From positions 1 through 39,202 of IMG/VR virus record IMGVR_UViG_3300008735_001079: a stretch of 39,202 bases of DNA. One strand, given 5' to 3'. The notes under the pieces were generated by a model. The model saw only the letters and a list, made by a program, of their open reading frames with translations, was not told where the DNA came from and did not search any database. The number at the start of each line of letters is the position of its first letter. Position 1 is the stretch's first letter. This document shows, in pieces, positions 14,068-39,023 of the stretch. This stretch comes from a virus. Position numbers and translations under genes: made by a program.

Positions 14068-14069
14068 AA

Positions 14070-18038: not shown

Positions 18039-18041
18039 TTG

Positions 18042-20672: not shown

Positions 20673-20675
20673 TTA

Positions 20676-23600
20676 TTATCTTGGATAGTTGACCACCTTT
20701 AGGTAGCCCTCTTCGTCTGTAAATTTAAACTTTTCTAGTGCGTCCCGTGTTCTGTGGGACGCTTGAAGTTTAGCCGCTTGCATGGCACTTACTTCACCTT
20801 TTTTTACAAATTGTCTTAAGTTTTCTTGCCAGTCTTTTCCACCAAATACAGAACTTTCTTTAGATAAGTTATCCTCCATTTTATCGTTTATCTGCTTCAT
20901 GATGTCTACTTTAACGTTATTACCCATATTGGGCTCACCACCATCATAACTTACAATTTCACCGCCCTCAGCGACAAGCTGGTTGGCCATCTGATTTACA
21001 GCTCTCTCTTCTTCAGCACTTAACTTTTTCCCGTCAAAAGCTGCCGTGTACATTCTTCTAGCTTTTTGTAAATCTTCAGCAGCAAGGCCAGCTTTATAAC
21101 TATCTATACCTTCTTTATTGTTTGTAATTTGTTCTGCTATATTTGCCATGGCTTCTGAACTCTGCTTACTTCCTACTGCTGACACATTAACAGAAAGTTC
21201 GTTTATATCGACTCCTTTGTTGATTAACATTTTCGTAAATTTAGAGTACTCTTCTGCAGTGTCGATATCACCCCAACCACCCATGAATCCTAGGATATCT
21301 CTTACATTAGATATAAGCCCCTCTTCTCCCATTTTTTCTAGAGCATTCTCTATGTCACCGCCCGAAATTTGCTTTTTGGTTACAGCAACAGACGCTCCTA
21401 CTGACTTAATTATATTCTCTCCCTTATTCCTATTATTATAGTAAATATCTACATTTTTTTCTAGTTGTTCAGACCCTATATTATACCCTATTGTTTCAGA
21501 TGAATTTGGTAGAATGGAACTGTTTTCACCACCCAAACCAGAAAAAACACCTAATCGTATATCTCCAATCTGTTTTTTACCTTCTTCTGATAAATAATCT
21601 TCTGCATTCCCAAAAGTTACTTTGCCTTTATTACTTGGATCTGCTAGTAAGTTATTATCTTCTACATACTTTCTTACAGCAGCATCCATACCTGCCATAC
21701 TTTGTCCAAACTCTTTCCTACTTTGCCTTGTTTTGCTTGCAACTATCCCTCTTGTAGCGAAATCTGGGACTTCTTCATCTGACTTAGCATCCCTAGTATC
21801 TTGTAGTATTTGTGAGTAGTTGAGGCCTTTTTTTAACTCTTTTACTCCTATCTTACTTTTAACAGTTTCATTTTTAACCACCCAGTCTGAAAGAGCGGCC
21901 CTCCCAGATTTGTCTTGGGTTGCATAGACTTCAGACTCCCCTTCGCGGTAAACCGCTTCACCTAGAATAGACCCTATATAATCTTCCTTAGCATCCTGGT
22001 ATCCTTCAGAACCCCTGATAGCTTCCGATACAGGGTCTGATGCTGTTAGTATGTCTATACCTTGTTTTAACTGCTTCTCGGTATACCTACCAGTAAATTT
22101 GGTCGTGGTTTTATTCCCCCACCAGTCTGCTAAACCTTCTGTAAAATCTCGTCCACCGCCCACCATGGATCTTCCTAATGCCCCTAATGGGGCAAAAACC
22201 CTGTCCACTGCTGTGCTAATACCTTCGTAAGCTGTGGCTATTCCACGAGTCACTGGTCCGGATCTAGACGAACTATTTAAGTCTTGGTAAGCATTATATG
22301 CTCCAGCCACTGTTTGTAAATTTTGGTTCTCTGCTCCAAAGGCTGCATCCATCATCATACCCATTCCTGTTCTTGCATCAACACCTTTCATAAGCATTGT
22401 AGCACCTAAGAATGCTTGTGGAGTAAAACTTCTATTAGTACTTTCAAAAAATCCTATTACGTCAGATAAAGCAGCATCCGCCCTATTTTGCGGTCCCATG
22501 GCTTGAACGTTCATACCTTGAGTTGCCATAGAAGACAACACATTCATAGGATTTTGCATTAACGAGCTAGCGCTATTTAGTACATCTCTAGGCATAATTG
22601 AAACATTACCCGACGTCCCAAACTCAGCTGCTTGCCAAAAACCTAAAGAGCCTGGACCTTGCATCATAGCCGCATTTTGACTGCTAGATACCATACTTGC
22701 TCTGTCACCCATACTCATACCTTTATTGATTTGTCCTGCAAAACCTTCATATTGTGCCCCAGATCTAAGAATACTTTCTAACCCAGACTGGAAAGATTGT
22801 GCTGGGTTTACTAAATTTTGTGCTCCTAAAAGACCCATAGCTTGCATCTCATTCCCAGCATGGGTTACGGTATTTAAAAATTGGGTGGGAGACTGGCCCA
22901 TAGAGCTTGCTGTTCCTGCAAACTGCGCTCCTCAAGCCCCTATACCGTCAGTTCCCTGAACTCCAGATTGTTTTATAGATGCCATTATCTGTGTGGCCTC
23001 TTGCATAGTAGTATTAAAAGCATTCTGAAATAATCTTAAGTTACTAACAACATCATCTGCTTCTTTTCTAAATTCTTCTGCATTGCTGACCCCTTTGAAT
23101 CCACCAGCAGCTCCAAAATCCATGATAGCTGTTTGGGCTACTTGACTATCTATACCCTGAAGCCTATCAGTTACTCCATTCGGCCTACTTAAAATTCCAT
23201 TTGCCATTCCTATAGCATCATCCATGCTCATATTTCCAAATGAACTAGATGCCAATGATTGCAGACCTCCTGCTAGGCTCTCTGCCTGTCTAGCTGGGGA
23301 CATTACTGCTTGTTTAGCTAAATCTTGTCCTCACCCCGCAAGCCCTCCAATAACAGCACCCGCAGGACCGCCCAACATTAAGCCTCCAAGGGCTCCACTA
23401 AATTTACTGAAGTTATCCATACCAAAATTTGTTACAGATCGAGCAAACTGGTCTGCATTCGCTGACCTATACTCATTGTAACCTACAGAGGAGTTAGGGT
23501 CGTACCCTGCCCCTAGTCCTCCCATAGCTTGTCCTAGGAAAGATGAGTTAGAGATATTCTGCTCTCGAGTTGATAGTGAGAAGTCTCCAGCATTTGTCGC

Positions 23601-23933
23601 CATACTTCCGGACATTCGTTGAAACCCGACTTGTGCTACATCAGAAATTCTAGACGCAAAGTCCTTTACTTCATTTAAAGAGTTATTTACTGTATTAGCA
23701 AAAGTGTTTTGAAACTGCGACGTTGACTGGAGAACTTCTGGTACAGCAAATGATGGCGCTGTAACTGCGAATCCTGATGGAGTTGCGGCCCCTCCTCCTA
23801 AAGAAGAAAAGGTAGAAGCCCCTCCAGACTGGGAGTTTACAGCCTGAGAGACTCTTTCTCTTATACTGTCCAGTTGACCCGCTAAGTCAGAGCTATCTAG
23901 CTCAATTTTATACTTTAATACTTTTTCCGCCAT
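20676..23933 (-). CDS. Tail tape measure-like protein (two TGA=Trp)
   Basis: 1085 aa with TGA at 23331 and 22932 read as Trp201 and Trp334, ending at TAA 20676. The contexts AVIGGLAGWGQDLAKQAV and DGIGAWGAQFAGTASS read naturally. The start (MAEKVLKYKIELDSSDLAGQL) is typical of tape measure proteins. Gly/Ala-rich hydrophobic stretches (GGLMLGGPAGAVIGGLAG, residues ~183-200) and long polar helical regions with many Met, Gln and Ser follow. It lies directly after the frameshifted chaperone pair, the conserved order in tailed phages. At about 0.15 nm per residue the length implies a tail near 160 nm (inference). Confidence 0.85.
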
Positions 23934-23938
23934 AACTA

Positions 23939-24711
23939 CTATTCCGTATAATTGCCCATATCTTTTATATTAATATTACTAAAATCTTCGTCCTTTACGT
24001 CCGTTCCCTTCTTAGAAACATTTCCCAAAGATTTTCCTTTAAAAAGTCCTCTGAAACCTTTCAGCTTATCGTCTATGTTATCTTTTGTAATTTCATCATC
24101 CTGTTTATGTGAATCTTCTACAAAAAATACATTATCATAGTATCTCTTTAGTAAGTCATTAAATTTTTGTACTTGATCCGAAGATCCAGTGTCAAGGGTA
24201 GCAGCTTTAGCAATTATCGCTGTTTTTAGATATTCACCCTGCATGTCGCGGTCTAGGCCACTTAAAAGAATAAGTTCTTTTAAGCTTCCTCTTTCCCCGA
24301 GCTCAATTCCCCTGACTTTTGCTCTAAGTCGTTTGGCATTGAGCTTGTTTCGAAAAAAGTTTTTTCGATCTCCTCTCCAGTTATAGCTTCACCAAGTTCC
24401 TTTTCAAATTCCGAGTGCTCTTTAGTAAGTTTATCTAATACAAAACTTGGTTGATTTTCAAGAAAGTCTTTTGCTTCGTCTGTAGACTTAAATGAATGCT
24501 TATTATATTTCTTTACTGTAAAAGATAACAGCATTAGACTGTAAGTATGCAGCACAAAAGCAGAAGATCCTGTAACATCGCTCATACTGTCTTCTATTAT
24601 TAACTGGTCTTTAGCAGATAAATTCTGCAAACTAACTTTTATCTTCCCATTAGCTAATTCTACCTCTTTTGTAGCGTAGCCATTTTCAAATACCTGTTCT
24701 AAAAAATTCAT
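23939..24711 (-). CDS. Tail assembly chaperone, frameshifted (G-T-like) product
   Basis: A -1 shift at the heptamer at 24352-24358 joins the first 120 codons of the short chaperone to an overlapping frame open to TAG 23939. This gives a 257-aa fusion. The new frame reads RNKLNAKRLRAKVRGIELGE then RGSLKELILLSGLDRDMQGE, with no stop between 24352 and 23939, and looks like a natural basic/helical protein. Without the shift the same downstream frame would have to start at an ATG at 24242-24244 with no ribosome site. In lambda-type phages the G-T fusion recruits the tail tube protein to the tape measure. That role is inferred. Confidence 0.75.
24280..24711 (-). CDS. Tail assembly chaperone, short (G-like) product
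   Basis: 143 aa, ATG 24709-24711 to TAA 24280. It is acidic and helical, with MNFLEQVFENGYATKEVELA at the start and a C-terminus KTFFETSSMPNDLEQ. It is the first gene of the leftward tail operon and immediately precedes the tape measure (apart from the frameshift extension), which is the place of the lambda G / G-T chaperone pair. A canonical -1 slippery heptamer occurs in frame near its end. The short product presumably coats or escorts the tape measure during assembly. No TGA codons are present. Identity rests on context plus the frameshift, not on sequence similarity. Confidence 0.75.
   Translation of the reverse strand: MNFLEQVFENGYATKEVELANGKIKVSLQNLSAKDQLIIEDSMSDVTGSSAFVLHTYSLMLLSFTVKKYNKHSFKSTDEAKDFLENQPSFVLDKLTKEHSEFEKELGEAITGEEIEKTFFETSSMPNDLEQKSGELSSGKEEA
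24352..24358 (-). other. Programmed -1 frameshift slippery heptamer T TTT TTC
   Basis: On the minus strand the sequence reads ACT TTT TTC GAA in the zero frame, which gives the X XXY YYZ heptamer T TTT TTC in the right phase. The zero frame stops at TAA 24280, 72 bases later, while the -1 frame is open through 23939. A weak downstream stem, GCTC with GAGC spaced by 16 bases, could help pausing. This is the classical arrangement for tail chaperone genes. Confidence 0.75.
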
Positions 24712-25088: not shown

Positions 25089-26471
25089 ATGGAGATACTA
25101 ATTGTAATAAAAAACAAAGTTTCTATTCTTGGATTTCCAAAAGAGGTTCAAGACGATATAAAAAAACTTTTAACTATAAGTAATCCTCTTTTTCACAAGA
25201 GGTTGGACTTAGGGTTACAAAACTGGGGGATTCCCTCATCACTAAAGTACTATGAAACAGGTAATGATAACGATAACTTATTAATAGCGCCCGTAGGAGC
25301 TTTAGGAGAAATTCTTAAAATAGCCCGCTCGCACGAGATAAAAGTAGATGGATCTGATATTCATGACAAGAGACTAAGTAACCCTAAAACGGACTACTTT
25401 TCTAACTTTAAGTTTAAAGGCAAGTTAAGGGGGTACCAGGAAGATATAGTGACATCCTGTATGAGTAAGAGTATAGGAATAGTAGAAGCGATGACTGGGT
25501 CAGGTAAAACAATATGTTTTGTTAATTTAACCTTGAGAAGAAAGGAACCTACATTGATTCTCGTGCATACGCTTGAGTTAGCGAATCAAACTATAAAATC
25601 GTTTGTAAAATTTTCTAATCTGAATGAAGATGATATAGGATTTATAGGTGATGGTAGGTTCGAAGTAAAACCTATAACTATAGGGTTACACCAAACTATG
25701 TCTAAGTTAAAAAAAGATAAATTTGAAATAGTAAACGAAAGATTTGGACAAGTTATTGGAGATGAAATTCACATCGTTGGCGCTGAAACTTGGTTTAGAA
25801 CCATGAATAATATTAGTGCAAAGTATAAATTCGGTTTTACAGCGACACCTAGAAGGGACGACGGCCTAACTAAAGTGATACACTTTGCAGCCGGACCTAT
25901 AATACATAAAGTACCTAAGTCTGCTCTAGAGAATTTCTTAATTACACCTGAGGTAGAGCAGGTAAAAACTCAGTATGAATTTCAAATGTTTTCTACACAG
26001 GAGTATCAAGAGATGATTACTGATCTATCGCAGGATGATGATAGAAACGACTTCATCTTAGACTACGTAATAAGTGACGAAAATAAAGATAAGTACAGTA
26101 TTCTACTTTGTACTAGAATATCACAAGTAGAATACCTGAATCACGCATTAGGGGATAAGAGCGTGATGTTAACATCAAAAATGACTAAGAAAAAGAGAGG
26201 AGAAGTGATGGGTGAACTGTACGCTGGAGAGAAAAAAATTGTTGTCTCTACTTATGGTTTGTTCTCGACTGGAATAGATATTCCACAACTGGAAATATTA
26301 TATCTTTGTGCACCTATAAAGTCGGAAGTCAAACTTAGACAAGCTGCCGGAAGACTGATGAGGATGTCTAAAGGAAAGAAAAAAGCAAAAATAATTGACT
26401 TTATTGATCAAAAAATTGATATATTAAAGTATCAGGGATACCATAGAAATAAAATTTTTAAGAAGTTATAA
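25089..26471 (+). CDS. UvsW-like superfamily 2 DNA helicase
   Basis: 460 aa from ATG 25089. A TTG 17 codons upstream is also in frame, but the residues it adds (low-complexity Lys/Ile/Tyr) look untranslated, and GGAGG lies just before the ATG with a short 3-base gap. SF2 motifs in order: Walker A MTGSGKT (about residue 135), motif II GDEIH (~225), motif III TATPRRDD (~250), motif V around STYGLFSTGIDIPQ, motif VI QAAGRLMR (~420). The N-terminal ~120 residues match the arrangement of T4 UvsW, a recombination/fork-remodelling helicase. It is the first gene of the rightward replication module. Confidence 0.9.
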   Translation: MEILIVIKNKVSILGFPKEVQDDIKKLLTISNPLFHKRLDLGLQNWGIPSSLKYYETGNDNDNLLIAPVGALGEILKIARSHEIKVDGSDIHDKRLSNPKTDYFSNFKFKGKLRGYQEDIVTSCMSKSIGIVEAMTGSGKTICFVNLTLRRKEPTLILVHTLELANQTIKSFVKFSNLNEDDIGFIGDGRFEVKPITIGLHQTMSKLKKDKFEIVNERFGQVIGDEIHIVGAETWFRTMNNISAKYKFGFTATPRRDDGLTKVIHFAAGPIIHKVPKSALENFLITPEVEQVKTQYEFQMFSTQEYQEMITDLSQDDDRNDFILDYVISDENKDKYSILLCTRISQVEYLNHALGDKSVMLTSKMTKKKRGEVMGELYAGEKKIVVSTYGLFSTGIDIPQLEILYLCAPIKSEVKLRQAAGRLMRMSKGKKKAKIIDFIDQKIDILKYQGYHRNKIFKKL

Positions 26472-26486
26472 CAAAGGAAACTAAAC

Positions 26487-26684
26487 ATGAAAGAAATAAA
26501 ATCTTTGTCGCATGATGACAGCAAAAATACAGAAGTAAAAAATAAGTTAGAAAAGATAGGAGACAGGCAATACTATGTGTCTATATCAGGTACAATAGAG
26601 GTTCTACCTAAATCACAAAGTATGTTATCTGAAATTACAAACTATAACTCCGAAGTTATGAGGGAGTTTAGTTCTGATGATTAA
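26487..26684 (+). CDS. Small hypothetical protein
   Basis: 65 aa, with AAAGGAAAC 8-10 bases before the ATG. It is charged (Lys/Glu/Asp-rich) with a short beta segment RQYYVSISGTIEVLP. The stop overlaps the start of the peptide deformylase gene by 8 bases, which suggests translational coupling. No family is recognised. Confidence 0.6.
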   Translation: MKEIKSLSHDDSKNTEVKNKLEKIGDRQYYVSISGTIEVLPKSQSMLSEITNYNSEVMREFSSDD

Positions 26685-27198
26685 AAAGATAAATACATTT
26701 GATAATTTAAAATTAAAACAACAAAGTACAGACTGTAAAACTACAAACGGAAGTTTGGTGATGCCAGTTACTGGCAATGACTCTAAAGTATGGGACCAAG
26801 ACACGATTGATATCGTAAATGATTTGAAGGATACCGCAGAGTCTGTATCTGACAAATGTTTGGGTCTGGCATCTAATCAAATTTGGGATAAGAAGTCCCC
26901 ACCTTTATCAGTGTTTGTAGTTAGAGTACTCGATGACACCGGAAACGGCTGGAAGTGGAAGGAATTTATTAACCCGACTGTGAATGGGACGGGTAAAAAG
27001 TACAAGTCAGAAGAGGGCTGTCTCAGCTACCCTGGTCAAAAACCTAAAAAGGTTATTAGAAGAAAAAACGTTGAAATATCATACTATACTCTAGAAGATG
27101 CAGAGCAGCGGCGTAGTATGAAGATGTACGGAAACCTTACCTACCTACCTACTATTATTCAACATGAGTATGATCATTTACAAGGAAAGACTATATAA
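26677..27198 (+). CDS. def: Peptide deformylase
   Basis: 173 aa. All three family motifs are present: GLASNQ (residues 63-68, variant of GxGxAAxQ), EGCLS (113-117) and QHEYDHL (162-168). Cys115, His163 and His167 bind the metal and Glu164 is the catalytic residue. The enzyme removes the N-terminal formyl group from new proteins. The protein ends five residues after the HEYDHL motif, so the usual C-terminal helix is missing, as in many phage deformylases. It overlaps the preceding small gene. In cyanophages such enzymes are thought to help mature host or phage proteins. Here the neighbouring CCA-enzyme-like gene points to a general effect on translation. Confidence 0.92.
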   Translation: MIKKINTFDNLKLKQQSTDCKTTNGSLVMPVTGNDSKVWDQDTIDIVNDLKDTAESVSDKCLGLASNQIWDKKSPPLSVFVVRVLDDTGNGWKWKEFINPTVNGTGKKYKSEEGCLSYPGQKPKKVIRRKNVEISYYTLEDAEQRRSMKMYGNLTYLPTIIQHEYDHLQGKTI

Positions 27199-27202
27199 TA
27201 TT

Positions 27203-27565
27203 ATGAGTAATAAATATGACTTCAGTGATTTAGGGACACCTCAAAATAACGACGATTTAAAAAACAGACCCAATTTTAGGATTGTGAAGACGTGCGGTAA
27301 CTGTAAATATTTTATGTCATTCACAAGAATAAAAAAACATGGGAATTGCGGAGTAACTAAAATGAAATTAAAAAAAATAAACAAGAGTAGAAAAGAGTGC
27401 TATGATGAATCTATACGTAACCAAATAAAAGAAGAGTGGCCTAAATGTCACGCTACTACTGTTTGTGAAAACCATGTTATAAGGTCAAGAGCTTATAACA
27501 TAAGTATGGTGTCTGATTGGTGTGAAGTAGAATTTGGTGTAGACGGGATGGTGAGAGAAGACTAA
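27203..27565 (+). CDS. Small cysteine-rich protein, probably zinc-binding
   Basis: 120 aa from ATG 27203, 4 bases after the deformylase stop. An in-frame ATG 13 codons upstream lies inside the deformylase gene and is less likely. Cysteines fall as CGNC, then HGNC, ECYDE, KCHATTVCENH and DWCEV, which suggests one or two metal sites. No family is recognised. The end overlaps the start of the next gene (TAATG). Confidence 0.65.
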   Translation: MSNKYDFSDLGTPQNNDDLKNRPNFRIVKTCGNCKYFMSFTRIKKHGNCGVTKMKLKKINKSRKECYDESIRNQIKEEWPKCHATTVCENHVIRSRAYNISMVSDWCEVEFGVDGMVRED

Positions 27566-29043
27566 TGGGAACTCAAATTATAAAGATGCTCAATTCTTAC
27601 GGGTTCGATGCTTGGCTTTGCGGCGGAACCGCCAGAGACATATATCTAGGTGTGGAGCCAAGCGGATTTGATGTTGCTATAAGAGCTAACTTAAAAGAAC
27701 TCCGTGCTGCACTAACCCCGAAGATACTAAGAATAAACCAGTATGATACATCTGTAACTATAAAGTACAAAGATAGAGAGTATTGTTTGTACCCGTTAAA
27801 AAAAGTTAAGTTACAAAATACTTACTACAATTATTCTTTTACAGATAATTTGGAGGATGATGCGGCATCTAAAGACTTTACAGTGAATGCCCTTTATTTC
27901 AACCCTTTAAAAGATGAGTGGTTTGATTTTTACGACGGGATTAAAGATTTGAATAATAAGACTATAAAGTTTGTCGGTGACCCTTACCAGAGAATACTTG
28001 AATCTAAGGTTAGATTACTGAGAGCTATATCTCTATGTAGCATATTAGGAAAATCTTGGAAAATAGATGACACATCGTTAAAGGCTGTGCAAGATAATAA
28101 GTTAAAGATAGCTGGAGCACCTTCTAAACAAATATTTAACGAGTTTAAAAAGGTTCTTACTAGGTGCGAAACGCCAAGCAGATTTTTTGCACTGATGGTC
28201 AAATCTAAACTAGACGAAGAGCTGTTTACTGAATTAAAGTCTTGTGTAGGTATAGAGCAAAGTAATAAAAGAAAGAACTTAGACTTATACCAGCATATTA
28301 TGTATGCGCTTGACTCTGTGCCATTGAACCATTCAAATACCCTACTACTAAGAACATCCGCACTGTTGCATGATATAGGTAAGCCTGCTACTGAGGTGTA
28401 TACTAATACTGGGATGCATTTTTATAACCACGAAAATGTTGGAGCTTTCGTAGCTGAGAAAATACTAACACAGTGGGGGTATCCTAGTTCTATTATAGAG
28501 ACAGTCACTCTTCTAATAAGGAATCATCTATTTGATGCATCTTTTAGAAAATCAGAAGCATCAGTAAAGAAGTTGATTGCTAAAGTCGGAGAGAATAATA
28601 TACACAATTTACTTGATTTACGTGTGGCGGATAGGATGGGATGCGGACGTCCAGATATATCAATGAAACCTGTGGACATTCTAAGAGAAAAGGTTAATAA
28701 ACTGTTGTCTAAGTCTTCTCCAGATAAAATAAAAATTAAGTTATCAAACTCACAAATTGAGTCCATAATAAAAAAGACTACTGATAACGTAGAGGGATCT
28801 GTAACTAAAGTCAGAGAGTATCTTGAGCAAAAACTTGTTATAGGTAAATTACAAAACAAGCCACAGAACTTGAGACGTGCAGTTTATAAAATAAATCATA
28901 TAAGATGCCCACTAGATAAGCCTCATCTTTTTCATACCTGGTCTGAGAAGCAAAAAGGGAGTGCTGATATTTTTCCAGACGGTAGGCTAAGGTGCGGAGT
29001 TTTCTGTAACTTCTTATGTGACAATACAGAAAAATCAAAATAA
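27565..29043 (+). CDS. CCA-adding enzyme/poly(A) polymerase-like nucleotidyltransferase with HD domain
   Basis: 492 aa. The head domain shows CGGTARDIYLG (residues 19-29, family GGxxRD motif) and KDFTVNALYF, and the neck region FVGDPYQRILESKVRLLRAI. An HD domain (SALLHDIGKP, His269-Asp270; NHENVGAFVAE) follows. The last 60 residues are Cys-rich (RCPLDKPHLFH, LRCGVFCNFLC). The enzyme class adds CCA to tRNA 3' ends. The catalytic DxD after the GGxxRD motif reads Gly34-Phe35-Asp36, so the first Asp is replaced by Gly. It may be inactive, altered in activity, or use another carboxylate. The start overlaps the previous stop (TAATG). Confidence 0.85.
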   Translation: MGTQIIKMLNSYGFDAWLCGGTARDIYLGVEPSGFDVAIRANLKELRAALTPKILRINQYDTSVTIKYKDREYCLYPLKKVKLQNTYYNYSFTDNLEDDAASKDFTVNALYFNPLKDEWFDFYDGIKDLNNKTIKFVGDPYQRILESKVRLLRAISLCSILGKSWKIDDTSLKAVQDNKLKIAGAPSKQIFNEFKKVLTRCETPSRFFALMVKSKLDEELFTELKSCVGIEQSNKRKNLDLYQHIMYALDSVPLNHSNTLLLRTSALLHDIGKPATEVYTNTGMHFYNHENVGAFVAEKILTQWGYPSSIIETVTLLIRNHLFDASFRKSEASVKKLIAKVGENNIHNLLDLRVADRMGCGRPDISMKPVDILREKVNKLLSKSSPDKIKIKLSNSQIESIIKKTTDNVEGSVTKVREYLEQKLVIGKLQNKPQNLRRAVYKINHIRCPLDKPHLFHTWSEKQKGSADIFPDGRLRCGVFCNFLCDNTEKSK

Positions 29044-29046
29044 AAA

Positions 29047-29415
29047 ATGTTAATTGCTTTTTTAATAATTTCAATTATAGCTCTAAGTTTAAATACATAC
29101 TATACTATAAAGACTGTAAGAAGTCTAAAGGCTAAATACTCTAAGATTTTATCACAGAAGAAAAGCAGTGAAGTAGTTACGGGCCATATAGCAGAACAGC
29201 TAGCCCCCTTCTTAGATAACTTTCCTTATGACCCAAAGCAAGTAAAATTCTTAGGGCAGCCAATAGACTATATACATTATGGAGATAATCAGATTACTTT
29301 TATTGAGGTAAAATCTGGTAAGTCTAGGTTATCAAAAAAGCAAAAACATATAAAACAATTAATCGAAAACAACCAAGTCTTTTGGGACGAAGTGAGAATA
29401 CATGGGAAAAATTAG
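29047..29415 (+). CDS. Holliday junction resolvase-related endonuclease, membrane-anchored
   Basis: 122 aa. The N-terminal hydrophobic stretch (LIAFLIISIIALSLN) is a likely membrane segment. The rest matches the Endonuc_Holl pattern: SEVVTGHIAEQLAPFLDNFP, FLGQPIDYIHYG, ITFIEVKSGKSRLSKKQ. The Asp in PIDY and Glu/Lys in EVKSGKS fit a PD-(D/E)xK nuclease core. It overlaps the primase-helicase start by 14 bases. The leader is A-rich (AAAATAAAAAATG) with no Shine-Dalgarno. Confidence 0.8.
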   Translation: MLIAFLIISIIALSLNTYYTIKTVRSLKAKYSKILSQKKSSEVVTGHIAEQLAPFLDNFPYDPKQVKFLGQPIDYIHYGDNQITFIEVKSGKSRLSKKQKHIKQLIENNQVFWDEVRIHGKN

Positions 29416-32137
29416 TACAGATATATTTAAAAAACTTTTCGTCCACAGGGACGATGTCTATGCTATACAGCAGACAAAAGGTTCTTATATTCCAGTAAAA
29501 GAGCCTATTGATGAAGATATAATAGAAGCACATTTGACTGGACGACAGACAATAGGATTGTACCAAGTGAAGCCGGAAGAGAATACCATTAAATGGGCTT
29601 GCTTAGACATAGACCTAACTAAATCAGTGTGGAGTAGTGAAAGTTTTAATATCGAAGACTGGAAGGATAAGTTATTAGAACAGGCAGAGATTTCAAAAAA
29701 ACTTCTTAGCAATAAGGGGATACCATCTTATATTGAGTTTTCAGGAAATAAAGGTTACCATGTATGGGTTTTCTTTGAAAATCCGGTTCCGTCTAGTATC
29801 ATAAAGAGTGGTTTTGAAAGTATATTTTCAAATATGCGCCCTACCGCAAACGGGATTGAGTGGGAGATATTCCCTAAACAAACTCAAGTAAATAAAGGAT
29901 CTTTTGGAAATCTCGTAAAAGGGCCGAACGGGTATCATCATAAGTCTAAAGTCTTTAGTGAATTTATAGATAATTTATCAGTAAGTACTATTGACTACGC
30001 TGATACTATGTCATTTTCTAATGAGTCAGCCCCTTATACGGAACCTCTAAAAAAATGCGAAGCTTTGCAAAATATGTGGGATACGTGTTTAGAGCAAGAA
30101 GAGTCCCCTAACTTTTTTAACGAAATAGTTGGGTACATGTTTACTAATATGGGGAAGGAGGCTGAAAGATACGCCACACAAAACTTCTTTAGCAGAATGA
30201 AGAACTATGATTCGGAGTTGACAAAAAAGAATATAGGAGTTATGAAGACAAAGATGCGTGAAGAGGGAGAAGGTTACCTTCCTATAACGTGTGAAAAGCT
30301 TCAAGACGGAAAGTATGGTAGCATCTGTTCTCAAAAATGCTCGGCTATTGGAAGAGCAAAAAGTCCTATAGCTTTCTACCACTGGTCCACCCAAGAAAAA
30401 GAAGTTGATATAAATGCTTTAGATAAATCAGATTTTCTTTTTCAGAGAGGGAACTCATATTACGAAAGACTTCCAGGTAAGGAAGATACAAAAATAAAAA
30501 AACTTTCAAGTTTTACAATGGATATAACTAAAGATACTACAATTAGTACAGGCATGCCTGAGTATGACAAAAGATTATTTGAGGGGGTTATAAAGAAGAA
30601 GAAGGATGATATAGACTTCGAAATTTCTTCGGATGACTTTTCTAATGACGAGAAATTAAAAGCTTTCATCTATAAGGCTTTAGGGCCAAATAAACTATTA
30701 ATAGATAATATACAATCTATTAAAACTGCTATTCAAAAGTATGCAGATGCAGAGCCTGTATTCATACTAAAGCAGTTTGGATTTAATGATTTAAAGGGCA
30801 GCGATAAGTATCCGTACAAGTATATGAGTCCGTCAGTTATTGTAGATAAAGACGGTATAAGAAGTAATGACGACACGTTGGTTAGCTTAGAAGGGGAAGA
30901 ATTTGCGGAGTGTTTAGATCTACAAAAAATAGACGATGAAACTTTTATCGCATTAAAAAAACATATACAAGAGGATTTAATAAAAGTTGTAAATGAAGAA
31001 GTCACCTATGGTGCTTTATCCTTTACATTCTTACCAATCTTATTCCCGTTTTTAGAAGGAGATAGAACAAAGTTTACTTACTTTGTTAGAGGGGAATCAG
31101 GAACAGGAAAGTCATATACAATGCAAGCATTCCAAAACTTTTACGGTGAGTTTGACTCTGTACCGACTTGGAGTTCCACAGCTAATTCCTTGGGGAGGAT
31201 AGGGTATTTTATGAAAGATTCTTTATTTATGATTGATGACTTTAAAAAGAGAATGTTCAATAAGCCGGGAGCTTTTGATGGTGCCTTAACCCTTATGCAA
31301 AACTACGCAGATAACACAGCTAGGTCAAGGATGAATGCTAATATGGAACTAGCAAAAACATTCGTTGTCAAAGGGTGGCTAGCATCCACTGGTGAGGATA
31401 CACCGTCCGGTGAAGCTTCAAATCTTGCAAGGTTAATACCAGTTACGTGTAACACAAAGTATAAAGACATGGTTCGTGGTAAAAGAATCCAAGAGATGAA
31501 AAAATTCTACCCAGGATTTACGGCTAGATATATGCACCATTTATTTAATGTAGCACCTGTACTATTAAATAAAGTAATGCAAGATAATATGGATCATTTT
31601 TATAAGAAAGTAGGCGGGCAGTCAAACGATATTAGAATAGCTAGAAATGTTTCATTGTTAGCAACAAGTTTTAAATTTATATCGGACTTTCTTTGGAGTA
31701 AGAAAAAGGCAATAGAAGCGCAAGAAACTTTTATGCGTATTCTTGATGTACAAATCATGGACGTAGCATCGGAAGCTGCAGAAGAGTTGGCATCTGATAG
31801 ATTTTTAAAAGGTTTACAGGAATTAATGTCCAGCAACAAGGTAAGGATGTTACCAAATTATATGGAGGATGTCGAAGAAAATAACCATACACCTATAATC
31901 GGGTACTGGGGATCGCACAAAGAGACTAAGGAACCTGTAGGGTACTTAGTAGTTAACTTAGCTTTTAAAGAAATACAGTCATTTTTAAGAGCTTCAAATG
32001 AAAGTTTAACTCACACAAAGAAAGCTATAATACATGAGCTTTATGAGAATGGAATGATATATAATAAAACAGTACAGTCAAGAAAAATGCGCGGTAGGTC
32101 TGTACGAGTAATAATAGTAAAACCAGGTTATTTATAA
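29402..32137 (+). CDS. Primase-helicase (AEP-type primase fused to P-loop ATPase)
   Basis: 911 aa. The N-terminal domain resembles the archaeo-eukaryotic primase of TOTE-type systems: HLTGRQTIGLYQV, then CLDID (Asp69 and Asp71, metal binding) and FSGNKGYHVWVFFE (Ser114 and His120). A Cys cluster (CEKLQDG, ICSQKCSAIG) near residue 305 may bind zinc. The C-terminal half has Walker A GESGTGKS (~564-571) and Walker B LFMIDDFK (~613), and a segment GEASNLARLIPVTC typical of phage replicative helicases. It probably primes and unwinds at the fork. Its end overlaps the next start (TAATG). Confidence 0.88.
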   Translation: MGKISTDIFKKLFVHRDDVYAIQQTKGSYIPVKEPIDEDIIEAHLTGRQTIGLYQVKPEENTIKWACLDIDLTKSVWSSESFNIEDWKDKLLEQAEISKKLLSNKGIPSYIEFSGNKGYHVWVFFENPVPSSIIKSGFESIFSNMRPTANGIEWEIFPKQTQVNKGSFGNLVKGPNGYHHKSKVFSEFIDNLSVSTIDYADTMSFSNESAPYTEPLKKCEALQNMWDTCLEQEESPNFFNEIVGYMFTNMGKEAERYATQNFFSRMKNYDSELTKKNIGVMKTKMREEGEGYLPITCEKLQDGKYGSICSQKCSAIGRAKSPIAFYHWSTQEKEVDINALDKSDFLFQRGNSYYERLPGKEDTKIKKLSSFTMDITKDTTISTGMPEYDKRLFEGVIKKKKDDIDFEISSDDFSNDEKLKAFIYKALGPNKLLIDNIQSIKTAIQKYADAEPVFILKQFGFNDLKGSDKYPYKYMSPSVIVDKDGIRSNDDTLVSLEGEEFAECLDLQKIDDETFIALKKHIQEDLIKVVNEEVTYGALSFTFLPILFPFLEGDRTKFTYFVRGESGTGKSYTMQAFQNFYGEFDSVPTWSSTANSLGRIGYFMKDSLFMIDDFKKRMFNKPGAFDGALTLMQNYADNTARSRMNANMELAKTFVVKGWLASTGEDTPSGEASNLARLIPVTCNTKYKDMVRGKRIQEMKKFYPGFTARYMHHLFNVAPVLLNKVMQDNMDHFYKKVGGQSNDIRIARNVSLLATSFKFISDFLWSKKKAIEAQETFMRILDVQIMDVASEAAEELASDRFLKGLQELMSSNKVRMLPNYMEDVEENNHTPIIGYWGSHKETKEPVGYLVVNLAFKEIQSFLRASNESLTHTKKAIIHELYENGMIYNKTVQSRKMRGRSVRVIIVKPGYL

Positions 32138-32892
32138 TGGAAATACACCCGTTGTATAGTAGCAGCTCTGGTAATTGTTGTAAAGTGGCCTCTTCGGAGG
32201 CTACTTTGCTAATAGACGCAGGAGTTAGTTACAAGAGAATACTTGAGGCATCTGAAGAAGATGACTTAGAAATATCAGCCCTTTTTATAACGCATGAACA
32301 TCATGATCATGTTGCAGGAGCAGGGGTTGTAGGAAGGAAACAAGGATGCCCTATTTATATACCAGAGGAATCATTCATTGCAAAGGAAAAAATATTTAAA
32401 AATTGTGATGTACAATTCATAGGAGGTGGGGATGAGATTAAAGTAGGAGATATGCTAGTAAAAGCATATACTACTAAACACGACAGTAAAGCTAGTTTAG
32501 GATATACAATTACAGATACTACCTCAAATAAAAAGTTTGGATACTTAACTGACTCAGGTAGTATATCAAAAGTAATGAGAGTAGCTTTAGAGTCTTGTAA
32601 CGCATACTTTCTAGAGGCTGACTATGACCAGCAGATGCTGGACGATTATGAAAAATATGATGAGCTACTTAAGATGAGAATATCAGGTCCTTTCGGACAT
32701 TTAGGTAACCATCAAATATCAGAGTATATAGAAAATGATGTTAACCTAGAAAAAGTAGAATGGATTGCATTTGGACACTTGAGTTCTAGGACTAACACTC
32801 CTGACATAGTATTAGAATTGATGAAAAATACCTTTCCAAGGTTTGAAAGTTTGTTTTTAGTAGCACCACTATCAGAACCGTTGTTGCTTTAA
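32137..32892 (+). CDS. Metallo-beta-lactamase-fold nuclease (YycJ/WalJ-like)
   Basis: 251 aa. The MBL motif THEHHDH (residues 52-58) is preceded by LLIDAGVS. Other family features are SLGYTI with GYLTDSGSIS (metal Asp) and FLEADYDQQML, LKMRISGPFGHLGNHQ, which parallel the ESNHD and GHLSN segments of WalJ-type proteins. These are metal-dependent hydrolases, several with 5'-3' exonuclease activity. It sits between primase-helicase and an exonuclease, consistent with DNA processing. The start overlaps the primase stop. Confidence 0.85.
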   Translation: MEIHPLYSSSSGNCCKVASSEATLLIDAGVSYKRILEASEEDDLEISALFITHEHHDHVAGAGVVGRKQGCPIYIPEESFIAKEKIFKNCDVQFIGGGDEIKVGDMLVKAYTTKHDSKASLGYTITDTTSNKKFGYLTDSGSISKVMRVALESCNAYFLEADYDQQMLDDYEKYDELLKMRISGPFGHLGNHQISEYIENDVNLEKVEWIAFGHLSSRTNTPDIVLELMKNTFPRFESLFLVAPLSEPLLL

Positions 32893-32901
32893 TTAAATGA
32901 A

Positions 32902-32945
32902 TTAGTTATATTAAAGAGAGAAGTAAATAAAATTAATATAACTAA
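32902..32945. repeat. 13-bp perfect inverted repeat in an intergenic gap
   Basis: TTAGTTATATTAA (32902-32914) and TTAATATAACTAA (32933-32945) are perfect complements around an 18-base purine-rich loop. It lies in the 68-base gap between the MBL nuclease and exonuclease genes. No T-run follows the stem, so it is not a standard terminator. It could be a protein-binding operator, an RNA processing site or a start-site control element for the exonuclease. Confidence 0.6.
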
Positions 32946-32960
32946 AAATCATAAAATTAA

Positions 32961-33617
32961 ATGGAAACTATTACTTTCGATATAGAAACAATACCGCAAA
33001 CAAAACTAACAGATATTCAACAATACGAGTTGGATAAAAAGTTAGAGAGAAGGTTTGCTAATTCCGACGAACCTACCGCTGAGGAATACGAATCAGCTAA
33101 GTCTTTAATAATGGGAACTAATCCATATTTTGGAGAAATAGTGTGTATAGGTCTCATGAAAACAACTTCAGATGGGAAATACGATACTATAGGATTAGTG
33201 GGGGATGAGAAAGATATTTTATCTAGATTTTGGAAAATAGTGTCAGGCTTTAGAGGTCTGTTCATATCATTCAACGGACTGTCTTTTGACGTGCCTTGGA
33301 TTATAAAAAGATCAATGAAGCATGACTTGAAAGCTACAAACCAAAGCTTTTTAAATACTAAAAAATTCTTCAAGTACCCTCATTGGGATGTTCACGTTAT
33401 CATGGCTGACTATGATAGATTTAAAGGTGCAAGCCTAAGACTAACTTGTGATCATCTAGGAATACCGTCTCCAAAAGAAGAAGAAATAACAGCAGAAAAC
33501 GTCTCCGTTGCGTACAGAGACGGAAGAATACAAGAAATAAAAGAGTACTGTTTAAGAGATGTTCAAGCAACGTATAATGCGTACTTAATATCAAAAAATT
33601 ATACTTTTATAAAGTAG
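32961..33617 (+). CDS. PolB-like 3'-5' exonuclease
   Basis: 218 aa. Exonuclease motifs are complete: Exo I FDIET (Asp7, Glu9), Exo II FNGLSFDVPWI, and Exo III YCLRDVQATYNAY (Tyr196, Asp200). The size and the sequence around DVHVIMADYDRFKGASLRLTCD fit the predicted PolB-associated exonuclease family that stands apart from a polymerase. It would remove mismatched or free 3' ends during phage replication or recombination. It starts after an A-rich leader with no ribosome site and ends at TAG 33617. Confidence 0.88.
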   Translation: METITFDIETIPQTKLTDIQQYELDKKLERRFANSDEPTAEEYESAKSLIMGTNPYFGEIVCIGLMKTTSDGKYDTIGLVGDEKDILSRFWKIVSGFRGLFISFNGLSFDVPWIIKRSMKHDLKATNQSFLNTKKFFKYPHWDVHVIMADYDRFKGASLRLTCDHLGIPSPKEEEITAENVSVAYRDGRIQEIKEYCLRDVQATYNAYLISKNYTFIK

Positions 33618-33625
33618 AACAAAAA

Positions 33626-33637
33626 TAACCAAGAAAA
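33626..33637 (+). promoter_or_regulatory. TAACCAAGAAAA leader motif, copy 1
   Basis: The 12-mer TAACCAAGAAAA lies 3 bases before the ATG at 33641. An identical copy lies 4 bases before the ATG at 38618. Both starts lack a classical Shine-Dalgarno, so the motif may serve translation initiation or a shared regulator. Confidence 0.35.
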
Positions 33638-33640
33638 CTA

Positions 33641-34579
33641 ATGAGCTTATTTGAAAAAGCGAAGCCTAGAGCTGAGAGGCTAAAAATGCTTGTGTATGGT
33701 GCATCTGGAACTGGAAAATCTGTAGTAAGTTTACACTTTCCTAAGCCGGCTGTTATCGACACAGAAAGAGGGACTGAGCATTACGGGGAGTACTTCGACT
33801 TCCACCGTATCCAAACAGTGAGTCCTAAGCAAGTAAACAAAGCAGTAGATGAGCTACTAAAGGATCCTACAGGTTTTAAAACTTTTGTAATTGATTCGTT
33901 TAGTAATTTATACGACTCTATCATAGAAAAACAAGTAGCTAAAATGCGAGTAAAGTCAGGTAACCCTAATTATGAAATTAGGCCACTTGACTACAAGTTT
34001 ATCAAGTCTGATGTTAAAATCTTAATAACAAAGATGCTTTCGTTAGATATGAATATAATAGTTACAGCTAAATCCAAACCTTTGTATAGTACAGACAAAG
34101 ATGAATTTATGCAAGTAATAGGAACTACTCCAGAAGGGCCTAAAGATTTGCCCTATCATTTTGATATTGTGCTTGAATTATACACAGATGAAAACGGTAA
34201 TCACATGGCTAAAATGGTAAAAGATAGGACTAATAAACTTCCACATGAGTTCGAATTTAATTACAAATCTTTCACCCAATATATTGGGATAGAAGGCTTA
34301 GAAAGGGAAGCGGTAGTATTCAATCAACAACAAAACTTAGAGCAGAATGAAAGTATGAGTAGAAGTGTTGACATAGAGTACAAAGGAAAAGAGCTAAAGA
34401 CGGCTGGTGTAAAGGCAGATACTTTAGAGAAACTTGAGAAAGCTGCTAGCAGCATGGACCAAAAGGATTTAAAAAAGAAACTAAAAGCTGATTACATGGT
34501 AACTAGCGTACTTGATCTTAAGCAAGATGAAGCCGAGTTACTATTGTCAGACTTAACAACTAAAACCAATAATAAATAA
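33641..34579 (+). CDS. RecA/Sak4-like phage nucleotide-binding ATPase
   Basis: 312 aa. Walker A YGASGTGKS (Gly20-Ser27) and Walker B TFVIDSFSNLYD (Asp85) fit the AAA_24/Sak4 group of RecA-like proteins that assist single-strand annealing in phages. DTERG after the first beta strand is a further family feature. The last ~90 residues are charged and likely linker or partner-binding. It is followed directly (TAATG overlap) by a DUF669 protein, the usual partner in phages, thought to be a single-strand binding protein. Confidence 0.85.
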   Translation: MSLFEKAKPRAERLKMLVYGASGTGKSVVSLHFPKPAVIDTERGTEHYGEYFDFHRIQTVSPKQVNKAVDELLKDPTGFKTFVIDSFSNLYDSIIEKQVAKMRVKSGNPNYEIRPLDYKFIKSDVKILITKMLSLDMNIIVTAKSKPLYSTDKDEFMQVIGTTPEGPKDLPYHFDIVLELYTDENGNHMAKMVKDRTNKLPHEFEFNYKSFTQYIGIEGLEREAVVFNQQQNLEQNESMSRSVDIEYKGKELKTAGVKADTLEKLEKAASSMDQKDLKKKLKADYMVTSVLDLKQDEAELLLSDLTTKTNNK

Positions 34580-35010
34580 TGGGTATTAATTTTAAAGAAG
34601 TAGGAGAAACTCAGAAGAGTGGGGACGGATTCGAACCGTTGCCAGAAGGACGTTATAACTTAGTAGTAGAAAACGCTGAGTTAACGACAGCATCGACTGG
34701 TAATGAGATGATAAAAACTACATTTCACGTAACAGAAGGTAGCTTTAAGAACAGGAAATTATGGAGCAATTTTGTTTTGACTCCTAAAGCTTATGGATTC
34801 TTATTTGGGTTCTTACGAGCAGCTGGTAGCGATCTAGTTACTCAGGAAGATGTAGAACCAAACGATATAGCAGCCGGACTTGTTGGATTGAAAGTATCAG
34901 CGTACACCGAGCCGGGGAAGACTCCAAACGGTAACCCTACAAACCCTTTATCTAAATATAGAGAAGTTACTCAGGGCGAAGAGCTGACTGGGGCAAGTTT
35001 ATTTGAGTAG
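34579..35010 (+). CDS. DUF669 protein, probable single-strand DNA-binding partner
   Basis: 143 aa. GFEPLPEGRYNLVVENAELT, IKTTFHVTEGSFKNRKLWSNF and a C-terminal EELTGASLFE give the DUF669 pattern, an OB-like fold with an acidic C-terminal tip. DUF669 genes stand next to Sak4-type ATPases in many phages and are inferred to be SSB-like. It ends at TAG 35010, 24 bases before the terminator, and closes the replication operon. Confidence 0.82.
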   Translation: MGINFKEVGETQKSGDGFEPLPEGRYNLVVENAELTTASTGNEMIKTTFHVTEGSFKNRKLWSNFVLTPKAYGFLFGFLRAAGSDLVTQEDVEPNDIAAGLVGLKVSAYTEPGKTPNGNPTNPLSKYREVTQGEELTGASLFE

Positions 35011-35033: not shown

Positions 35034-35063
35034 AGGCGGGTGTATTTTATGCCCGCCTTTTTT
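35034..35063 (+). terminator. Rho-independent terminator after the replication operon
   Basis: A 7-bp stem AGGCGGG (35034-35040) with CCCGCCT (35052-35058) and an 11-base loop is followed by six T. It is the only clear intrinsic terminator in the window. It divides the block without TGA codons from the downstream genes in which two TGA=Trp codons occur. Confidence 0.9.
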
Positions 35064-35089: not shown

Positions 35090-35395
35090 ATGAATGAGAA
35101 AGAGATAAAGGAAGCTGAAGATAAATTAAAATTAATTGAAAACGGTCTGAAAGAAAAAGCAGAAGAAATTGATGGTAGAGAAGCCTCTGTTAAAGAACAA
35201 GAGGAAAATATCTTAAAAAAAGAGAAGAAGTTATTAGAAACTTTAGGAGTAGTGGACTCTAGTTCTTCTTTTTCTGAGACTGTAAGTATTGTTAATAATT
35301 TATATAATTCATATGTTGCTATAAGTGGTAATGACGATGGCCTTATAGATACAATACAAAAAATAATTGACGCAAGAAAAGCTTTTAATAACTAA
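35090..35395 (+). CDS. Small coiled-coil protein, unknown function
   Basis: 101 aa. Residues 1-50 are almost all Glu, Lys, Leu and Ala and predict a coiled coil (EKEIKEAEDKLKLIENGLK). The rest (VSIVNNLYNSYVAISGNDD) is a short helical tail. First gene after the terminator, with an A-rich leader. No family is recognised. Confidence 0.65.
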   Translation: MNEKEIKEAEDKLKLIENGLKEKAEEIDGREASVKEQEENILKKEKKLLETLGVVDSSSSFSETVSIVNNLYNSYVAISGNDDGLIDTIQKIIDARKAFNN

Positions 35396-35405
35396 GGTCA
35401 TTGAT

Positions 35406-36095
35406 ATGAGTATATGGGCTTCGTTGTCAAAAAAATACAAATACGATAGCGTAGAAAAACTGAAATTAACAATAGGTATACCTACTATTAATCAGGCTGA
35501 CTTATTGGAGGAGAGCTTGCAAGATATCTCAAAAAATATGGGTGATGTACAAGAAGTTATAATAGTAGATAATGGAAATCAAAATTTTAATATACCTAAT
35601 AATTTAAAGGATAAAACCCACATACATAAACCTGGAAAAAATTTAGGGGTGTCTGCTAGTTGGAATTATATTATAAATAAATTCGCTTCTACTGGAGGTC
35701 ACCTAGCTATTCTAAACGACGATATAATATGGGGCAAAAGTCTTAGTCAAGTACAGTCCGTACTAGATGAGGTTGGAGATTACAACGTGCTGACTATGGG
35801 GGCATGTTGGTCATGTTTCTTTATATCTAAAGAGTGCATCAATAAAATAGGGTTATTTGACACTAAATTTTATCCCGCTTATTTTGAGGACAATGATTAC
35901 GCTTATAGATTAAAATTAAATGATACAGAGCACAGTAATATAAAAGGCCTGGATCCCTTGGTTTATCGAAAGTCAATGACAATTAAAAAAGACCCGAACT
36001 TGAATAAAGATTTTAGCTCTAATAGGAGGTACTTCATTCAAAAATGAGGCGGACTTCCAGGTCAAGAAAAGTTTAAAAAACCTTTTAATAAATAA
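35406..36095 (+). CDS. GT2-family glycosyltransferase (TGA=Trp)
   Basis: 229 aa when TGA 36045-36047 is read as Trp214. The GT-A pattern is clear: LTIGIPTINQADLLEESL, VIIVDNGNQ, GKNLGVSASWNYII, LAILNDDIIW (DD metal motif) and YFEDNDYAYRLK (catalytic ED). The end reads FIQKWGGLPGQEKFKKPFNK, in which the TGA gives the Trp of the KWGG-P-E-F motif seen in related phage glycosyltransferases. That favours Trp over Gly. The start is ATG 35406, since a TTG upstream lies in the previous gene. It probably modifies phage DNA, virion proteins or host glycans. Confidence 0.85.
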
Positions 36096-36096
36096 C

Positions 36097-36768
36097 ATGA
36101 CTTACTGGGACTTATTAATTGACAAAGTAGGGTACACACAAATGCTCCCAACACTACACGTTATTACAAGAACGTCTGGTAGGCCGAAATTTTTTAGTAC
36201 GTGCTATAGTAGCGTAAAAGAACAGTCATACCCATATATAAGACACTTAGTTACGTCAGACGATCCTTTAGATACTTACGTAAATTCTTATAATGATGTT
36301 AAACTTTTAAAATTAAAAAAAGAAGATTTCAAACATTATAACTTATATCTAAATGTGGCTATGGAGATGGTTCCTAATAATGATTATGTATGTTTTCTAG
36401 ATGATGATGATTACTATACATCAAAAGATTCGTTGTCTACAGCAATGGGTATGTTACTGGAGCATAAAAAAGATATAATTTTTTGGAAGGTACGAGCTGC
36501 TGGTGGCACAGTTCCAAACAATAGCTACTGGAAAAAACCGTTAGTTTTAGGACAAATATCCATGATAGGGTTCATAGTAAAGAAATCTTTTATAGAAAGT
36601 ACGTTATTTCCAGATAAGGGGTGTGGAGATTTTCATTTCATACACGATCTTATGAAGGGGAGATGGGGAGAAAGAAACGCCTTATGGGTAGATAAAGTGC
36701 TATCATCGACAACAGAGCACCAAAGAGCTGGTAGAGGCAGAAGAGTTGATAAAAAAGATAACAATTAA
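36097..36768 (+). CDS. GT-A fold glycosyltransferase
   Basis: 223 aa. LHVITRTSGRPKFFSTCYSS and EQSYPYIRHLVTSDDP give the nucleotide-sugar half, and YVCFLDDDDYYTS carries the acidic metal motif. GQISMIGFIVKKSF and CGDFHFIHDLMKG form the acceptor half. It starts 1 base after the preceding glycosyltransferase, so the two are probably co-translated. Its sugar and acceptor are unknown. All five Trp codons are TGG. Confidence 0.85.
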   Translation: MTYWDLLIDKVGYTQMLPTLHVITRTSGRPKFFSTCYSSVKEQSYPYIRHLVTSDDPLDTYVNSYNDVKLLKLKKEDFKHYNLYLNVAMEMVPNNDYVCFLDDDDYYTSKDSLSTAMGMLLEHKKDIIFWKVRAAGGTVPNNSYWKKPLVLGQISMIGFIVKKSFIESTLFPDKGCGDFHFIHDLMKGRWGERNALWVDKVLSSTTEHQRAGRGRRVDKKDNN

Positions 36769-36782
36769 TTACAGAGATATAA

Positions 36783-37274
36783 ATGATAGATAAAAGAAAT
36801 TTAGGTGGATGGGCTATTAGTGAAGAACTTCTTTATCACATAGAGCAATTAGTACCGAAAGGAAGCACAATACTTGAGTTAGGTAGCGGTACAGGTACTA
36901 AGGAATTAGTTAAAAACTATGAGGTGTACTCTATAGAACATAATAAAGAATGGGTAAACTTTTGCAAAGATAGCAACTATATTTATGCGCCTATAAGAGA
37001 GTATAACGATTATTCTTGGTATGATGTGTCTATTTTAAAAAATACTTTGCCAAAAAATTATGATCTGATAGTAATAGATGGGCCTCCTGGAAGTATTGGA
37101 AGGATAGGATTTTTAAAAAATATTGATATATTTAATGTACGTGTTCCTATCATAGTAGATGATACGAATAGGATACGCGAGATGGAACTTTGTAATTCTT
37201 TAGAAGAGTTACTGAGCAAGAAAGCCAGTCACTATATTTACCCAGAGGCAGAGAAAGGATACTCAGTGCTATAA
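36783..37274 (+). CDS. SAM-dependent methyltransferase-like protein
   Basis: 163 aa. ILELGSGTGTKELVKNYEVY carries the glycine-rich SAM loop with an acidic residue after the next strand (YSIEHNKEWV). DLIVIDGPPGSIGR is a motif IV-like strand and VPIIVDDTNR a later strand. Small-molecule or sugar methylation fits its place between glycosyltransferases and a sulfotransferase-like gene. The substrate is unknown. Confidence 0.75.
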   Translation: MIDKRNLGGWAISEELLYHIEQLVPKGSTILELGSGTGTKELVKNYEVYSIEHNKEWVNFCKDSNYIYAPIREYNDYSWYDVSILKNTLPKNYDLIVIDGPPGSIGRIGFLKNIDIFNVRVPIIVDDTNRIREMELCNSLEELLSKKASHYIYPEAEKGYSVL

Positions 37275-37319
37275 AGCGAAAATAAACTAACTAGAAACTT
37301 AAATTACAGGGGAGATAGT

Positions 37320-38395: not shown

Positions 38396-38604
38396 AAGAC
38401 ATAGTAAAAAAGAAAAACGTAGTACAAATAGTACACGACTCTCTTGTAGGTGGAGGGGTAGGGCATATTGTGAGTTATAATGAAACATTTGTGATGTTAA
38501 AACCACATACGAACGAAAAACTTATAAAAGAGTTTGGGGAGCCTACACCATACACGATATTAATACCTACACAAAATATTAAATTAATAATGATTTTAAA
38601 TTAA
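38377..38604 (+). CDS. Small hypothetical protein overlapping recU
   Basis: 75 aa, ATG 38377, overlapping the end of recU in another frame. DSLVGGGVGHIVSYNETFVM and TPYTILIPTQNIKLI suggest a small beta-barrel. It is separated by 13 bases from the dUTPase-like gene. No family is recognised. Confidence 0.55.
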   Translation: MDLRFIEDIVKKKNVVQIVHDSLVGGGVGHIVSYNETFVMLKPHTNEKLIKEFGEPTPYTILIPTQNIKLIMILN

Positions 38605-38613
38605 CCAAGAAAA
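38602..38613 (+). promoter_or_regulatory. TAACCAAGAAAA leader motif, copy 2
   Basis: Identical to the 12-mer at 33626-33637. It ends 4 bases before the ATG of the dUTPase-fold gene and overlaps the stop of the preceding one. Confidence 0.35.
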
Positions 38614-38617
38614 AATA

Positions 38618-39022: not shown

Positions 39023-39023
39023 T

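Follow-up and report, generated by a model that had tools for sequence, protein, structure and literature searches.

Why does one block of a phage genome avoid a codon that the neighbouring block uses freely? This question is raised by a stretch of viral DNA, IMG/VR record IMGVR_UViG_3300008735_001079, positions 1–39,202, which is referred to in its whole length as the window. It carries a late (tail) block, in which TGA is used in frame as a tryptophan codon, and an early (replication) block, in which every Trp codon is TGG (Table 1). An earlier note on this DNA had pointed out the contrast and proposed that recoding gates late gene expression. Here, the avoidance of TGA is confirmed and is stronger than had been claimed. 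We read the codon partition as the footprint of protein timing and amount relative to a suppressor tRNA, to which we give a probability of about 0.72, and a tRNA with two anticodon arms, found in relatives of this phage, probably does the re-reading of TGA.

A gene-by-gene recount under code 4 returned the same 46 TGG and 24 TGA codons for the tail block as counted before, while the replication block contains 31 TGG (30 if its first gene starts at the ATG at 25089) and no TGA. Both plus-strand TGAs indeed lie beyond the terminator-like hairpin that ends this block. However, the probability of 3 in a million quoted for the contrast is too small, because it assumes independent codons and a known rate; a codon-level Fisher test gives 6e-5, and a gene-level test of the window alone gives 0.0016. 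A contig of 64,007 bp (G004, IMGVR_UViG_3300007508_000607) contains the window at 99.99% identity and thus represents the same phage, and permutation of genes with this contig reached the observed partition in 2 of 200,000 trials.

The comparison was extended to a relative 82% identical to the window phage (G003, 52,200 bp) and to distant relatives recruited by neck-protein and portal scans. As judged by open-frame coverage, computed once with TGA as a stop and once without, G006 (210 kb), G013, G018 (205 kb), G019, G017, G014 and G020 are recoded, with primase identities of ~50–88%, while G008 (180 kb), G011, G015 and G016 use the standard code; the call is least certain for G016, where coverage rises from 0.642 to 0.700 (TAG control 0.683), yet TGA stops are present. 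Among homologs of the window genes, the TGG/TGA counts of core early and late genes are 71/0 and 53/27 in G004, 64/0 and 46/28 in G003, 60/0 and 24/16 in G006, 25/0 and 7/18 in G013, and 77/0 and 25/34 in G018, where none of 200,000 gene permutations matched the partition. Pooling the three deep, divergent lineages G004, G006 and G018 gives 208/0 for early and 102/77 for late genes (codon-level probability 2e-31). The recoded stop is thus enriched in late genes and depleted in early ones, core early genes being free of TGA in every recoded lineage examined; neither TGA in core early genes elsewhere nor uniform TGA use was found in these lineages. In the standard-code relatives, TGA is absent from the same late genes.

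When the TGA sites were aligned to standard-code relatives, Trp was found at 129 of 284 positions, followed by Tyr, Phe and Leu, the same runner-ups as at TGG sites. Decoding as Gly was rejected, since Gly is aligned at only four of the 284. These in-frame TGAs stand in conserved genes, and TGA is lost as a stop, the homologs in G004, G003, G006 and G018 ending in TAA or TAG. On this comparative evidence, TGA is shown to be read as Trp. The ends of early-block genes are conserved in both codes. None of the 64 early genes of G004, G006 and G018 stops at TGA, compared with 17–24% of long open reading frames (ORFs) in the standard-code relatives; therefore, TGA is avoided altogether in early genes, as an ambiguous codon, and the earlier view that early proteins are made with standard termination is not supported in that form.

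A codon alignment of G004 with G003 separates selection from composition. Among 78 shared late Trp sites, 42 are TGG in both phages, 14 are TGA in both and 22 have changed, while all 68 early sites are TGG in both. At the NNR codons (R, A or G) of Lys, Glu, Gln, Leu, Arg and Gly, G and A have interchanged to a similar extent in the two blocks, at ~20–40% (about 30%) of sites, and the A-ending share of these codons is ~0.6–0.8 in both. With 22 of 78 late but 0 of 68 early Trp sites flipped and the other NNR codons alike, the substitution pattern shows that selection, not composition, removes TGA from early genes.

A candidate for the decoding agent was found in G006, where a 98-nt tRNA with anticodon UCA lies on the late strand, far from an early-strand array of 25 tRNAs. 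It has two tandem anticodon arms, the first with UCA, which reads UGA, and the second with CCA, the Trp anticodon. Such tRNAs were found unselected in G006, G013, G014, G018/G017/G019 and G020, and later in G023/G024, so that G006, G013, G014, G018, G020 and G024 make up six recoded relatives that carry them. The tRNA occurs in every recoded relative covering the region, 10–34 nt before an Amidase_2-type endolysin gene on the same (late) strand. In covariance model searches it scored 68–80 bits compared with at most 51 for other tRNAs, and it was not found in the standard-code G008, G015 and G016. Recoded and standard-code members are interspersed in a portal tree with low deep support; an early gain with later losses would be the simpler history because the tRNA occupies one syntenic place, although transfer is possible.

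A DNA pattern combining the UCA arm, TCCAA and a T arm matched 74 viral contigs, about 70 of the matches being tRNAs, and yielded about 55 distinct two-armed sequences from diverse phage contigs. Near these tRNAs, the median open-frame gain is 0.164 for TGA and 0.042 for TAG, compared with 0.080 and 0.054 for chance pattern hits; as a noisy measure, this gain backs recoding only on average. A blastn search of INPHARED with the two-armed tRNA of L207 returned no match. This tRNA type (L332, L207) also occurs in a 1.48-Mb scaffold of the isolate Bacteroides neonati MS4, of a standard-code genus, probably in a prophage.

The second arm occupies the long variable region, which forms a hairpin with the loop N-U-C-C-A-A-A/G, a Trp anticodon loop, in all five distinct unselected sequences. 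In most sequences it has a stem of 5–6 bp around a 7-nt loop, with a closing mismatch in 17 of 55, and the linker to the T stem is 4 nt in 43 of 55, which equals the variable-loop length of class-I tRNAs. Over the 55 sequences, 247 of 275 stem cells are paired compared with 135.5 (standard deviation 7.4) in shuffles; stem pairing and linker length lie outside the requirements of the search pattern. RNAalifold and pair counts agree with this arm (helix 4 paired in 95.8%). Both arms appear in the single-sequence folds of L166, L211, L148 and L208, the last having its first arm shortened, while for L147 (G024 type) the energy minimum gives another fold of the 3′ half. When the pattern was run without TCCAA, all eight credible UCA tRNAs with a long variable region among the matches listed had the CCA loop. 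Taken together, the two-armed structure is very probably real in the relatives.

The two halves of the L166 tRNA (1–42 and 47–96) each match ordinary tRNA-Trp genes; the molecule can therefore be described as a tRNA-Trp whose anticodon arm is duplicated, one arm being in register with each half. Identity-type elements for Trp are present (G73 in 58 of 59 sequences, A1-U72 in 47 of 59), in line with the bacterial identity set of G73, acceptor pairs and anticodon (PMC9976931, PMC12135181). ARAGORN labels these tRNAs tRNA-SeC; however, L360 reaches only 38.5 bits against a gathering cut-off of 47 for tRNA-Sec, and L166 scores best as RF00005. No gene for tryptophanyl-tRNA synthetase (TrpRS) was found in 27 two-armed records and none for a release factor (RF) in 11 records of the phage group, while three records with single-armed tRNA(UCA) encode TrpRS. 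The predicted pairing of a single-armed tRNA(UCA) with a phage-encoded TrpRS was seen in the first two Trp-type records but failed in most others, and is suggestive only. A separate contig group (L371, L373, L372, L390, L392, L393 and L395) carries a single-armed tRNA-Trp(UCA); it is mostly TGA-recoded by open-frame gain, and no TrpRS was found in it.

In the mechanism proposed here, we infer the timing, the charging, the host's code and the occurrence of the tRNA in the genome to which the window belongs. The host would use the standard code, and a phage suppressor tRNA would make UGA readable as Trp. This tRNA would build up only with late transcription, because in the relatives its gene directly precedes the late-strand endolysin gene. 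Core early proteins would then be made before the suppressor is present or while its level is low, so that an early TGA would truncate the protein and be purged. Late genes would tolerate TGA, except for those of the most abundant proteins, where slow or leaky decoding of UGA would cost most, and any delay of late proteins would be a consequence of the partition. The suppressor would be the tRNA-Trp with the duplicated arm, in which arm 1 decodes UGA and arm 2 keeps its CCA loop, most simply for recognition by the host TrpRS. Since reading UGA needs U34, a CCA loop placed elsewhere could preserve charging by the host enzyme, a role for which we see not quite an even chance. The same tentative standing applies to the wider proposal that decoding (UCA arm) and charging (CCA arm) are split, possibly through alternative stacking, whereby one late-strand tRNA gene would be the whole recoding kit.

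Several points weigh against this account or against the gating idea. The labels early and late derive from gene content and strand. The variable glycosyltransferase island on the early strand does contain two TGAs, and among late genes those for sheath, tube and capsid also avoid TGA; both facts limit the gating idea. No tRNA was found in the window or in its contigs, G004 (64 kb) and G003 (52 kb), the window and G004 being fragments. G024 is tied to these contigs only by its tetranucleotide distance and by its twin G023 co-occurring with G003, and no end overlap joining it to them was found. Many phage contigs with a single-armed tRNA(UCA) lack TrpRS, and the E. coli enzyme is said to have no need to tell C34 from U34 (PMC12135181), so the CCA arm may be dispensable.

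As to the tRNA of the window phage itself, G023 and G024 match the complementary part of G006 in collinear order and carry the two-armed tRNA. Their tetranucleotide profile is the closest to that of G003 among the contigs compared (distance 0.070), all others outside the clade of G003 being at 0.10 or more, and one metagenome yielded both G003 and G023. These two contigs are likely the missing part of a G003-type genome. Hence composition and co-occurrence, rather than overlap, suggest that the window phage most likely carries a two-armed tRNA of the G023/G024 type.

One alternative concerns the second arm, which may serve not TrpRS but as an anticodon-nuclease decoy or a reader of UGG, or may be a recombination relic of adjacent tRNA-Trp genes. 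The match of both halves to tRNA-Trp, the presence of an ordinary tRNA-Trp(CCA) within 1 kb in 11 of 71 contigs and the possible tolerance of TrpRS for U34 (PMC12135181) make this plausible, if somewhat short of even odds. In a neutral relic, however, the covarying stem, the CCA loop and the 4-nt linker would not have been preserved across 55 diverged sequences. In L166, the two-armed tRNA (8971–9066) and an ordinary tRNA-Trp(CCA) (9071–9142) are only 4 nt apart, an adjacency that hints at an origin by recombination between neighbouring tRNA-Trp genes.

It is also conceivable, though rather unlikely, that timing plays no role and that UGA, being slow and always in competition with RF2, is simply removed wherever yield or integrity matters. 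The late genes for sheath and tube contain 18 TGG and one TGA over three lineages, a TGA share below that of other late genes (p = 0.0009), and the late major capsid protein gene has two TGG and no TGA. Moreover, TGA makes up about 34–58% of late Trp codons in large samples, less than the ~68% of other NNR codons that end in A. In contrast, replication proteins, which are expected to be low in copy number, have no TGA among 208 Trp codons, early genes of all functions are TGA-free, and fibres and baseplate proteins, large and structural, carry many. Because the most abundant late proteins also avoid TGA, inefficient decoding probably contributes besides timing.

An adaptive gate, with recoding selected because it prevents premature synthesis of late and lysis proteins, appears improbable. 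This published proposal (Borges 2022, as cited in PMC10879173; PMC10746230) agrees with the suppressor tRNA adjoining the endolysin gene in six lineages. However, the lysin itself has no TGA in G006 and G018 and therefore cannot be gated there by readthrough, and the interspersion of recoded and standard-code relatives means that the gate is dispensable. Of the gating idea in the earlier note, what stands is the TGA-free state of core early genes and a late-strand, UGA-reading tRNA before the endolysin gene, while regulation is inseparable by sequence from passive constraint. The idea that the replication block was recently taken over from a standard-code phage was rejected as very improbable: such relatives exist, but early homologs have diverged in step with late ones (about 82% nucleotide identity with G003; similar amino acid identity of core genes with G006/G018), and all lineages conserve the block. 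A mutational or strand composition bias, suggested by the opposite strands of the blocks, was rejected as next to impossible, since coding-strand skews are alike and other NNR codons share A content and flip rate.

The late-strand glycosyltransferases of G004 are TGA-rich, and the genes of the early-strand island may therefore derive from them. A further early-strand ORF with two TGAs (G004, 50035–50256) was discarded as spurious, the likely real gene being in another frame, without TGA. Beyond the island, the resumed early block stays TGA-free in G004 up to contig position 53197.

Table 1. Positions of the blocks, genes and codons of the window discussed in the text.
Feature	Position	Strand	Remarks
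Late (tail) block	1..24711	-	16 genes, including tail fibre, baseplate wedge and tape measure-like; TGA in frame as Trp
Weak sigma-70 region-3 match, inside the tail block	16169..16891	-	Below Pfam cut-off; 1 TGG, 0 TGA
Early (replication) block	25089..35010	+	Stops TAA/TAG only; helicase, peptide deformylase, tRNA nucleotidyltransferase, resolvase-like, AEP primase, metal hydrolase, exonuclease, Sak4-like, SSB-like
DNA helicase, first gene of the TGA-free replication block	25089..26471	+	
tRNA nucleotidyltransferase (CCA-adding) gene	27565..29043	+	
Terminator-like hairpin with T run	35034..35058	+	End of replication block
Variable cargo island (glycosyltransferases etc.)	35090..37841	+	Mostly replaced in the 82%-identical G003
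TGA in frame, close to the C-terminus of a GT2 glycosyltransferase	36045..36047	+	Exception on early strand
TGA in frame, island gene with no family match	37554..37556	+	Exception on early strand
Resumed early block: resolvase, dUTPase-like, start of ribonucleotide reductase	37919..39200	+	6 TGG, 0 TGA

Besides the weak sigma-70 match in the tail block, a clear sigma-70 is encoded in the early block of G004. A protein of ~2020 residues resembling fused β and β′ RNA polymerase subunits is encoded in G006 (83406–89465, L042) and G024 (18665–24727, L360–L361), on the late strand and with 1–3 TGA codons. In G006, the large terminase (193423–196092) and a prohead protease-like gene (197679–200579) contain apparent inteins, recognised by eye from sequence, and a reverse transcriptase-like gene (77619–78521, likewise by eye), with homologs in most relatives, lies beside odd small ORFs, possibly as a retron. 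Phage tmRNA genes with differing tag peptides were found in G006 (95541–95943), G018 (96897–97268) and G022 (32131–32489).

That recoded stops are biased towards late genes is already known from crAss-like phages (Yutin 2021, Borges 2022), and the gating idea itself has appeared in print (PMC7886860; Borges 2022, cited in PMC10879173); what is added here is a contractile-tailed phage group. It provides a clean case (0 of 208 early compared with 77 of 179 late Trp codons) for asking whether recoding times phage expression or only records timing. If the two-armed tRNA acts as proposed, it would show a route to charging a UGA-reading tRNA with an unmodified host TrpRS, break the rule of one anticodon arm per tRNA and offer a UGA suppressor design. 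It may also help to explain why suppressor tRNAs were recognised in only 15% of code-4 phages (PMC11210395). No precedent for a tRNA with two anticodon arms was found in the open literature, outside which most subscription papers lie, and this is no proof of novelty.

In crAss-like phages, the recoding of UGA or UAG falls mainly on late genes (PMC7886860, PMC12386605), and these phages share with the present group the in-frame stops in late or structural genes, a suppressor tRNA and standard-code relatives nearby. The present group differs in its fused RNA polymerase-like protein, in the tRNA before the endolysin gene, in core early genes that are wholly TGA-free in all lineages, and in that neither RF nor TrpRS was found. 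Crassvirales have a short non-contractile tail, whereas a baseplate wedge and a protein matching the tail sheath of Bacillus phage G point to a contractile tail here. The lytic-gene model of Borges 2022, as far as it is cited in PMC10879173 and PMC10746230, likewise has recoded stops enriched in structural and lysis genes and a UGA-reading tRNA in code-4 phages; there, the kits of some phages include RF1 and TrpRS, neither of which was found here, where the tRNA has two anticodon arms. Compared with ordinary tRNA-Trp and class-I tRNA-Trp(UCA), the two-armed tRNA shares A1-U72, G73, alignable halves and the UCA anticodon, and adds a second full anticodon arm, which has the loop NUCCAAA and is separated from the T stem by 4 nt. 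Its UCA anticodon and the long arm of its variable region are also found in tRNA-Sec and allo-tRNAs (PMC7609411), but it is set apart from them by a 7-bp acceptor stem of Trp type and the fixed CCA loop of its extra arm.

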